Below the pieces are notes generated by a model. It did no database searches and was not told where the DNA came from. It saw nothing but the letters and a program-made list of their open reading frames with translations. This document shows positions 5,419-61,031 of a stretch of DNA of 64,000 nucleotides, piece after piece; the stretch's first letter is position 1; every line of letters begins with the position of its first letter. The DNA is from a virus, in IMG/VR virus record IMGVR_UViG_3300042563_003224, positions 1-64,000 of that record, one strand, 5' to 3'. A program made the position numbers and the translations under genes.

Positions 5419-6066
5419 CTAAGGGTGTTCTTTTAACTTGACTAGGCCAAGCGATTTAAAAATATTTATATACATCCAGCCTATATCAAATTCATACCAG
5501 TTCTTAGAGAGGCGGGCACTCGCTGGGTCCAGGTGGTGGTTGTTGTGCAACTCTTCACCGCCAATAACAATACCCCAAGGCACAATATTACGACTATGAT
5601 CTTTAGTTTCGCCATTTCTATATCCTATCCAATGACCCACACCGTTTATGACTCCTGCCGCCCAGAACGGAATCCATATCATTTGGATGCCCCACATCAC
5701 GATGCCCCACCCGCCAAATATCAAGGTGTTTAACACAAGGAGAGTGCCAATGCCAAGTCTAGAGTGACGAGTGTATATGTTGTGCTCCATCCAATCAGCA
5801 GGAGTACCAGCACCGTATGTATTAACCATGTCCTTATCTTTGCTTGCTTCATGATATAATACTGCTCCTTTGAAGAATACTTGTCCAATTCCGTAAACAT
5901 GGGGACTATGTGGGTCACCCTCTTGCTCAGTGAATCTATGATGCTTGCGGTGTACTGCCACCCATTGTTTTGTGACCATTCCGGTTGTTAGCCAAAGTGA
6001 CTGAGTATGGGATGAAATATCAATCCTCGATGTGCTTGTCCACGATGTAGGAAAACTGTGACACAT
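5419..6066 (-). pseudogene. Fatty acid desaturase, C-terminal part (frame disrupted)
   Basis: This frame holds most of an acyl-CoA/acyl-lipid delta-9 desaturase. It has histidine box 2 H-R-K-H-H at about 39-43, box 3 H-N-N-H-H in the last quarter, and hydrophobic segments between. It would add a double bond to acyl chains in the membrane. The first box, H-R-G-Q-A-H, is encoded upstream in a different frame (6113 down to about 6000). That frame stops soon after reading H-P-I-L-S-H-F-G, just where this frame starts to read W-L-T-T-G-M. About 13 bases seem to be missing at about 5993-6003. It is a recent pseudogene, an assembly error, or a frameshifted gene. Confidence 0.75.
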
Positions 6067-23280: not shown

Positions 23281-24249
23281 TTATTGTTCTGGTGGAAGAG
23301 ACTTTATCACAGGTATCCACTGTTTTCTTAACTGTTCCATGCTATTCTTAAATCCTATTGGAGTTAGTTCGGCGTCTACAGAAAACATTAGATTATTTGC
23401 AAAGAATTGCTGTGCTTCTGCACTTTTGATGATGCCAGCAAAGTTTTTAACATACCAGTTTATGATGTCGCTGGGTGTGTTCTTGGGCAATATAATGCCC
23501 CATGCCGCATACACACTGGCTCCGGGTATGTATTGTTGCATGAGTGGAATACTGGGAATTTGTGAAAGTCTTTGTTCGCTAAACAAGCCCAGTATTCTGA
23601 CACGCCCGCTTTGGGCCAGGGTGTGTGCAATAGCAACAGGAACAATACCAAACTCAACTTCATGCGCTGCCACTGCTGTAACTGCTTGTGCTGGACCTTT
23701 GTAACTGATTAACTTGATCAAGTTGTTGTCTAGTTTTAGTTCTTTTGCTATGTAATTATAGGCCAGCTTATGTGCTCCTGATCCTGCCGCTATGTTAACA
23801 GGTTGAGTGGTATGTCGCAATTGATTGATAAATGCGGGTATAGTGGTGATAGAACTATTGCCGGACACTACCAATGCCAGTGGACTTTTTGCAATAGTGA
23901 CCACATATTCAAAATCGTTGAGGGTATATCGCACAGCACTTTGATTAAAGTATTCAGCAGTTACCCAGATGCCTTGATGACTTGGTATATACACATGATA
24001 GCCATCGGCAGGCCTATTAATAAACTCGTTCATGGCCACCACTCCATCGGCCCCTGGGCGATTGGTAATTACAAAATTGATATTTTTATTTTGTTTTTCA
24101 AGCAATGATGACACACCTCTGAAACTGACTTCGTTGCCCGAGCCCGGTGCAAAGCCAATATAAACATTGACAGGTCGTGTGGGTTCCCATGCCAGTGCCG
24201 CCAAGGGCAATAGCATCAACGCAATAAAGTTACTAATATATCTGACCAT
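23281..24249 (-). CDS. Bug/TctC-family periplasmic solute-binding protein
   Basis: 322 residues with a signal peptide (about 1-20, ending L-A-A-L-A). It is a tripartite tricarboxylate transporter receptor: P-T-R-P-V-N-V-Y-I-G-F-A-P-G-S-G at about 23-38, N-R-P-G-A-D-G-V-V-A-M at 63-73, and full family length. These bind carboxylates in the periplasm for TctAB permeases and are greatly expanded in Burkholderiales. It is probably host-derived and unusual for a phage. It overlaps the upstream sulfotransferase-like gene by 34 bases. Confidence 0.85.
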   Translation of the reverse strand: MVRYISNFIALMLLPLAALAWEPTRPVNVYIGFAPGSGNEVSFRGVSSLLEKQNKNINFVITNRPGADGVVAMNEFINRPADGYHVYIPSHQGIWVTAEYFNQSAVRYTLNDFEYVVTIAKSPLALVVSGNSSITTIPAFINQLRHTTQPVNIAAGSGAHKLAYNYIAKELKLDNNLIKLISYKGPAQAVTAVAAHEVEFGIVPVAIAHTLAQSGRVRILGLFSEQRLSQIPSIPLMQQYIPGASVYAAWGIILPKNTPSDIINWYVKNFAGIIKSAEAQQFFANNLMFSVDAELTPIGFKNSMEQLRKQWIPVIKSLPPEQ

Positions 24250-59750: not shown

Positions 59751-59784
59751 ATTTTGGGCAAATTGGGTGTTGTAAATGAGCCAC

Positions 59785-59812
59785 AAAAAAGCCCCGCAAA
59801 TCTTGCAGGGCT
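59785..59812 (-). terminator. Rho-independent terminator after the porin
   Basis: The minus strand reads AGCCCTGCAA-GAT-TTGCGGGGCT and then TTTTT, 45 bases after the porin stop. Confidence 0.9.
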
Positions 59813-59857
59813 TTTGTAGTACTTTAGTATTACTTTTTGATCAGTAATACTTTGGTA

Positions 59858-60955
59858 TTAGAACGTGTGACGCAAGCCAACTGCGGTGCGCTTTGTTACA
59901 CCAGCGGTGGCTGTGGCACCTGCGGTGTTGGTGTCAGCATCACGAGTGTCAAAACGTGCATACAAGTTGGTTCTCTTGCTGAGTTCATGATCCACACCGT
60001 AACCAAGAATTTTCTTGTCTACATTGGCTGTGCTCTTTTCATTGCTGGAACCAGTTGACCACATGACGCTGGTAGCACCAACGGTGTACTTGGCACCAAA
60101 CATTTGTCCAGTCTGGTCGATAGCGGTGGCTGTGTTTTGTTTTTCTGTCCAACGACCACCATACACAGTTGCGGCACCAATCTTGTAGTTGGCAGACAAC
60201 ATGCTGAGAGTGTTGTTGGTACCATCAGTCAAGGCCTGTGAACCAGTGGCAATGAATGATGCAGTGGTAGTGGCCAAAGTGCCTGACTGCTCAATGCGTT
60301 GAGCGGCATACTGCACACTCACGGGACCATTGGCATATTTTACACCATAGTCAACCACACTCTGAGCATTGACGCTGGCACTTGGTGGCACATACAAATA
60401 AGAACCACTTACACCTGCCACTGCTGGAGACTCATAACGAATGGCTCCATTGAAGCGAGTAGGTGCAGATTGTGCTGTGTGAGTTGCTGTGGCACTGTAA
60501 CGAGTAAAGATGTTACCGTTTGATCCATAACCTGAACCAATGGCTGTACCAAACACAGATCCGTTGCCCCAGGCATCTAGGATGTTGGAATTCACACGAC
60601 CAAGTTTCACAGTGCCCCAATTGGCTTCTGTGCCTATAAAGGCTTCTTGACCCACACCCACAGTGCCTGCTGTGGTTGAGTTGTATGTGGTGCCTTCAAC
60701 TCCGGCACCATTGATGAAATCAGGTGTTAGTTGTAGTTTGAAATTGGCACGGAGTCCGCCGCCTAGATCATCTGTACCGGCAATGTTCAGCACCGTAGTG
60801 GCTGAATTATTGGCTGCAAGACCTTTGGTGTTGACACCAGTGGCTGCATTGGTAAACAACAGGCCGGTATCAACCAGGCCAGTGATATTGACAGCACTTT
60901 GAGCAAACACAGAGGTGGCCGCAAGTGCAATCATGATTGCGAAGATTTTCTTCAT
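59858..60955 (-). CDS. Gram-negative general porin (Burkholderiales type)
   Basis: 365 residues from M-K-K-I-F-A-I-M-I-A-L. Signal peptide about 1-19 (ending S-V-F-A). The mature barrel starts with S-A-V-N-I-T-G-L-V-D-T-G-L and ends with the aromatic C-terminus G-L-R-H-T-F required for BAM assembly. Gly/Asp/Asn-rich loops and the plan of 16-strand trimeric porins (Omp38-like) fit. It has its own promoter and terminator. A phage carrying a complete porin is unusual; it might replace or mask the host receptor. Confidence 0.92.
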   Translation of the reverse strand: MKKIFAIMIALAATSVFAQSAVNITGLVDTGLLFTNAATGVNTKGLAANNSATTVLNIAGTDDLGGGLRANFKLQLTPDFINGAGVEGTTYNSTTAGTVGVGQEAFIGTEANWGTVKLGRVNSNILDAWGNGSVFGTAIGSGYGSNGNIFTRYSATATHTAQSAPTRFNGAIRYESPAVAGVSGSYLYVPPSASVNAQSVVDYGVKYANGPVSVQYAAQRIEQSGTLATTTASFIATGSQALTDGTNNTLSMLSANYKIGAATVYGGRWTEKQNTATAIDQTGQMFGAKYTVGATSVMWSTGSSNEKSTANVDKKILGYGVDHELSKRTNLYARFDTRDADTNTAGATATAGVTKRTAVGLRHTF

Positions 60956-61002
60956 TGAGTTTTCCTTTTTAATAAAAATCATGGTCTTTCGATCCATGTG
61001 TT

Positions 61003-61031
61003 ATTATATAGCCTTCTGAACTGAAGAGCAA
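61003..61031 (-). promoter_or_regulatory. Sigma70 promoter for the porin
   Basis: TTGCTC-N17-TATAAT, with a leader of about 40 bases and AAAAAGGAAAACTC before the ATG. Confidence 0.75.

Follow-up and report, generated by a model that had tools for sequence, protein, structure and literature searches.

A predicted outer-membrane porin gene exchanged as a cassette between diverged large phages

Introduction

In Gram-negative cells, porins have a classic double role as doors and as receptors. Is a porin gene found on a viral contig a true phage gene, and if so, what would a phage gain from it? This question is raised by a stretch of 64,000 nucleotides (the window; positions 1 to 64,000 of IMG/VR record IMGVR_UViG_3300042563_003224), in which a sequence-only reading had identified a complete porin gene with its own promoter and terminator. 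That reading called a phage-borne porin notable, a view that holds for this phage group but not in general, as phage-borne porins as such are already known. The proteins lc of phage PA-2 and NmpC (OmpD) of lambdoid phages and of prophage DLP12 are also intact trimeric-type porins, encoded in a separate transcription unit of a tailed phage. They are however OmpC-type enterobacterial porins of temperate lambdoid phages, whereas the window porin belongs to the Porin_4 family and is carried by a jumbo-phage relative.

Results

The porin ORF (Table 1) starts with a signal peptide, MKKIFAIMIALAATSVFA, whose cleavage before Q was read from the sequence, and ends in GLRHTF, the last Phe being the BAM signal. 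Its product matches Pfam Porin_4 (PF13609) over positions 4-309 of the 310 of the profile (108.3 bits for a cut-off of 27, E 9e-31). The AlphaFold2 model (pLDDT 78.6, pTM 0.80; low confidence in the long loops L2 and L5) shows 16 barrel strands and a helix (residues 124-132) within the in-folded loop 3. A Foldseek search with this model gave as top match Omp32 of Comamonas (Delftia) acidovorans (1e54, E 9.6e-21, TM 0.74/0.81), and the malate-bound form of Omp32 (2fgq) was also among the best matches. By sequence, the closest solved structures are Omp32 and PorB. Omp32 shares fold and family with the window porin and is about 24% identical to it, but it is the major porin of a host chromosome and is not phage-borne. 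The ORF, the Pfam match and the model thus bear out that the outer-membrane porin is complete, with signal peptide, barrel and C-terminal Phe intact. The pore-constricting loop L3 is retained, with a length of 44 aa, and the mature protein has a net charge of +3 to +4. We predict from its sequence that the protein belongs to the Omp32-like Porin_4 family of betaproteobacteria and acts as a diffusion porin, either general or of anion type.

Table 1. Positions of the porin locus and of other genes mentioned in the text; positions refer to the window unless another contig (L or G) is named
Feature	Position	Strand	Basis or remark
Porin ORF, 365 aa	59858..60955	-	ATG to TAA; translation, Pfam, model
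Parts of the porin ORF	signal peptide 1-18; 16-strand barrel; loop L3 123-166; C-terminal Phe		residue numbers
Mobile cassette	59781..60969	-	88-96% DNA identity to ten viral contigs; flanks differ
Putative sigma-70 promoter, TTGCTC-17-TATAAT	61003..61031	-	sequence; equivalent site in sister cassettes
5'-UTR hairpin, CATGGATCGAAAGACCATG	60980..60998	-	just past expected transcription start
Ribosome binding site, AAGGA	60963..60967	-	DNA common to cassettes begins about here (60969)
Rho-independent terminator	59785..59815	-	-18.9 kcal/mol, z -5.1; shared DNA ends here
Upstream neighbour, 189 aa	61062..61631	-	no Pfam match; 68% identical homologue flanks L284 site
Downstream neighbour, 91 aa	59417..59692	-	no Pfam match; weak L284 homologue, 54% over 37 aa
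TctC-family periplasmic solute-binding protein, 322 aa, exported	23281..24249	-	Pfam PF03401, E 6.5e-26
Protein with fatty acid desaturase domain	5422-6066	-	
Exported protein with autotransporter beta-domain, 698 aa	L100:14599-16692 (G000, about 97.6-99.7 kb)		same phage as window
Exported DNA/RNA non-specific endonuclease	L099:13002-13820 (G000, about 76.0-76.8 kb)		same phage as window; signal peptide; PF01223, E 3e-38
OmpA-family proteins directly after porin	L103:11179-11718; L107:11168-11707; L110:11104-11652; L123:11228-11800		PF00691
Gene resembling the porin-adjoining OmpA-family gene	L105:11102-11641		judged by its start
Rubrerythrin genes near porin	L103:11937-12386; L107:11882-12316		
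Small exported proteins, 182-183 aa	L370:1459-2010, 2072-2623; L371:1297-1845		C-terminal Phe

Ten further viral contigs encode the same porin with 92-99% amino-acid identity, one of them as a 320-aa fragment; an eleventh holds only a 96-aa end fragment, 93% identical in DNA. The signal peptide and the C-terminal Phe are retained in 10 phage copies. Likeness to the window DNA at the porin site extends from 60969, just before the ribosome binding site, to 59781-59807 in the terminator, and no further. By these alignment limits, the unit that moves between phages consists of ribosome binding site, ORF and terminator (60969 to about 59785). The neighbouring genes and their counterparts in the cassette-bearing contigs are about 26-89% alike (45% for the DNA ligase). 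Among 36 ORF pairs common to the window phage and two cassette-bearing phages, the porin pair ranks first in likeness (96%), the next reaching 89%. As the porin is more alike than the genes of the backbone, it has been exchanged recently between diverged phage backbones. Its dN/dS of 0.04-0.14, at dS 0.16-0.50, shows purifying selection on the protein. What is exchanged is thus an intact, selected, terminator-bounded porin gene.

The site itself can hold other genes. In phage contig L284, homologues of both genes flanking the window porin enclose a non-porin gene, dioxygenase-like and with its own terminator, and we read the porin locus from this arrangement as a plug-in site. Like a moron, a self-contained piece of phage cargo, the porin gene has its own terminator and is present independently of the backbone, as seen from the diverged backbones that carry it, the relatives that lack it and L284.

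Does the gene then belong to the phage at all? It might stem from host contamination or an assembly chimera, or be a host gene carried passively without phage function. The GC content of the cassette (0.49) lies above that of the neighbours compared (0.38-0.47), and its flanks in the window are unlike those of its relatives, as such an origin would allow. The full or nearly full gene is however found in at least 10 other viral contigs, mostly beside phage genes, its dN/dS is low, and no bacterial genome searched holds a full-length porin match above 38%. A host contaminant, which the sequence-only reading had named as the finding that would overturn it, or a chimera is ruled out: in many contigs, independent of each other and differently flanked, the cassette is surrounded by phage genes. 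L284, where a different gene with a terminator of its own occupies the site, also speaks against such an origin. We therefore consider this whole family of explanations highly improbable, and the window gene almost certainly a phage-encoded porin cassette.

The expression signals of the cassette are unequal in quality. The terminator is strong (Table 1), and its stem is kept in the sister cassettes with alternative sequences. Upstream, the -10 box TATAAT (61008-61003) is perfect and the spacing is 17 nt, but the -35 box TTGCTC (61031-61026) matches the consensus at only 3/6 positions, which is why this promoter is absent from the list of the consensus scan. The promoter of the window is therefore plausible rather than certain. 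At the equivalent place, the sister cassettes have TTGACT-17-TATAAT, a better promoter, which lends support to the claim that the porin has its own. The window promoter falls outside the DNA common to the sister cassettes. Likewise, where the window has its 5' hairpin (-7.2 kcal/mol, z -1.7), the sister cassettes have a different one, which reaches -9.4 kcal/mol (z -3.4): the sister contigs have one promoter and one 5' hairpin in common, unlike those of the window. Of the two signals first proposed, the terminator thus stands and the promoter is a plausible candidate; the description of an intact phage-borne porin in an autonomous expression unit is supported to that extent.

To which phage does the cassette belong? 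The window is part of a virus record of 105,163 bases (G000), which holds one porin of the Porin_4 kind along with genes for a B-family DNA polymerase, an ATP-dependent ligase, a clamp loader, an endolysin and ClpA-type proteins. By polymerase and Clp, the nearest isolates are Sinorhizobium phage Phosso and Agrobacterium phage Atu_ph07 (469 and 490 kb), and we therefore take the record to be part of a jumbo-type phage genome. Its host is probably betaproteobacterial and Comamonadaceae-like. The same phage also encodes an exported endonuclease, and the window a desaturase-domain protein (Table 1).

More distant porins occur in the same phage group. A scan with the family alignment found 22 more porin loci in 21 contigs, 24-36% identical to the window porin, and nearly all of these contigs have further genes in common with the window phage. 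Many of the distant porins lie near the ligase or adjoin a metallophosphatase homologue. Four more porins were found among 29 relatives (contigs of up to 356,865 bases), the other 25/29 having no Porin_4 match above the cut-off, which brings the distant porins (24-36%) to about 25 other contigs in total. None of 16 sister contigs picked by their polymerase had a Porin_4 match above the cut-off.

One of the 21 contigs bears a porin gene at both of its inverted ends. In this contig (IMGVR_UViG_3300032288_004815, 117,666 bases; L102/L113), the two terminal stretches of 18.6 kb carry one and the same set of genes, inverted relative to each other, and further in a TctC gene also occurs twice. The doubling reflects either a long inverted repeat or an error of assembly.

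The sequence-only reading had called for a phylogeny against host porins. When the phage porins were put in a quick tree together with 89 bacterial ones, they came out at several points. A single phage clade, as expected from one capture, was rejected by an AU test, also on quick trees (p 1.4e-14); by this tree evidence, the family was captured from betaproteobacterial hosts more than once. The cassette clade is nested in the betaproteobacterial set (SH-aLRT 95) on a long branch of about 0.9 changes per column from its bacterial relatives. The best bacterial matches of the cassette porin are 36-38% identical and come mainly from one Comamonadaceae genus (G039, G488, G452; also G654). These porins share with the phage cassette the loop-3 motif FGTAIGSG(Y/F), seen in L213 and L214; the one context checked, that of L214, is chromosomal. 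In the bacterial genomes searched, no gene was closer than 38% to the cassette porin, and a search of bacterial genome contigs with the window porin alone, which reaches close relatives only, gave no match. The tree and the dN/dS values together describe a host-derived gene under selection in phages.

A second exported protein of the window phage may be a functional partner of the porin. The TctC-family protein (Table 1), encoded 36 kb from the porin, could serve in organic-acid capture. TctC matches were found in 24/49 records of the phage group, the window phage included, with three copies each in contigs of 374 kb and 357 kb; the collection of named phages gave one match. A TctC-like gene, with a weak TctC score, directly follows the porin in L118 and L121 (8-nt gap), and in L108 one lies a single ORF away from the porin. 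Across contigs of at least 60 kb, no association between porin and TctC was seen (9/13 vs 12/22, Fisher p 0.49).

Discussion

Since the cassette is traded nearly unchanged and porins have been captured repeatedly, the porin probably alters either the uptake of the cell or the entry of rival viruses. Our preferred prediction, which we hold at somewhat less than even chances, is that it raises the uptake of small solutes during infection. The sigma-70-like promoter would be read early by host RNA polymerase, the message would be stabilised by its 5' hairpin, and the porin would be inserted by Sec and BAM, forming a trimer in the outer membrane of the host. The extra pores would raise the entry of small solutes, probably organic anions, into the infected cell, where the phage TctC proteins could capture such substrates and pass them to the TctAB permease of the host itself. 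The presence of TctC in the window phage and about half of its relatives tilts the balance toward this role, and the net charge of the mature porin agrees weakly with a preference for anions. On the other side stand the lack of association between porin and TctC, the weak -35 box of the window and the charges of the other phage porins, which range from -6 to +6 and thus indicate no common selectivity. It also weighs against uptake that porins are stable proteins, so that the need for new ones in a lytic infection is questionable.

The main alternative is superinfection exclusion, in which the phage porin would displace or outnumber the major receptor porin of the host and fewer phages would adsorb. 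It has its precedents: 42 records of the phage collection carry porin genes (lc of PA-2, NmpC of 434 and relatives), in which they form units of their own, distinct from the lysis genes and oppositely oriented. Lysogeny by PA-2 lowers OmpC and thereby blocks superinfection. Frequent exchange and the repeated capture of different porins are consistent with an arms race. The phage porin is at most 38% identical to any host porin found, so receptor sites would differ, and its loop L4 is short (7 aa for a median of 19 in related host porins). The other external loops are however not shortened, and variable positions are no more frequent in the external loops (10/85) than in the strands (22/196; Fisher p 1.0). 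The short L4 excepted, the hypervariable or trimmed external loops expected of receptor evasion are thus absent. Loop L3 varies somewhat more than the remainder (10/44, p 0.046), a difference too weak for use. Moreover, a closed barrel would suffice for exclusion, yet the pore loop is retained. We consider exclusion possible but rather unlikely, and favour uptake over it as the predicted role.

The porin might also be one of a set of exported barrel or anchor proteins that maintain outer-membrane integrity, or ready the membrane for lysis, during a long infection. An exported OmpA-family protein (PF00691, 179-190 aa) directly follows the porin in L103, L107, L110 and L123, the window phage encodes the autotransporter beta-domain protein, and some relatives have small barrel-like proteins of 182-183 aa. 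The cassette of the window is however without such a partner gene, and an open pore of 16 strands would be an odd reinforcement. We consider envelope maintenance or remodelling an unlikely role, less probable than exclusion. Rubrerythrin genes also occur near two of the porins with OmpA-type neighbours (Table 1).

Returning to uptake, a broader and more speculative version, which we hold with somewhat less confidence than the uptake role itself, is that the large phages of this group are equipped with a modular kit for uptake through the envelope. Swappable porins, sometimes OmpA-type anchors, and one to three TctC proteins would let the phage choose the organic anions taken up by the infected betaproteobacterium. 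The recurrent TctC proteins make the uptake version concrete and testable. More generally, a porin cassette that is traded and repeatedly captured offers a direct way of testing whether large phages control entry into the infected cell, be it of nutrients, drugs or rival phages.

Movement from backbone to backbone within its phage group distinguishes the window cassette from lc and NmpC. In a tblastn search of the phage collection, the window porin did not match the lc records, whereas an NmpC query did. Automatic 'porin' labels are already attached in UniProt to proteins of uncultured phages. Two BFVD entries from 'uncultured Caudovirales phage' (A0A6J5L4P1 and A0A6J5LP82), automatically labelled 'OmpC porin', have a similar predicted fold (E 6e-21) and are 18% identical to the window porin; our literature search found no paper on them. 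Transport genes including tctA were reported on SUP05 viral contigs (PMC4164917). That report concerns a single tctA domain match and leaves porins unmentioned, whereas here TctC recurs across a phage group. This tctA match on a viral contig was the only related record in the literature searched, which held neither a phage TctC nor a jumbo-phage porin. Relative to that literature, the new elements are Porin_4 in a jumbo-phage group, the precise exchange of the cassette, the repeated capture of porins, and the accompanying TctC and OmpA-type genes.

The small barrel-like proteins of the relatives (Table 1) occur in phages without a full porin, and one of them matches the C-terminal half of Porin_4. 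No overlap between porins and these barrels of about 180 aa was seen, in a small number of cases. In the 374-kb phage they adjoin the metallophosphatase homologue, in the slot that holds the porin in other phages.
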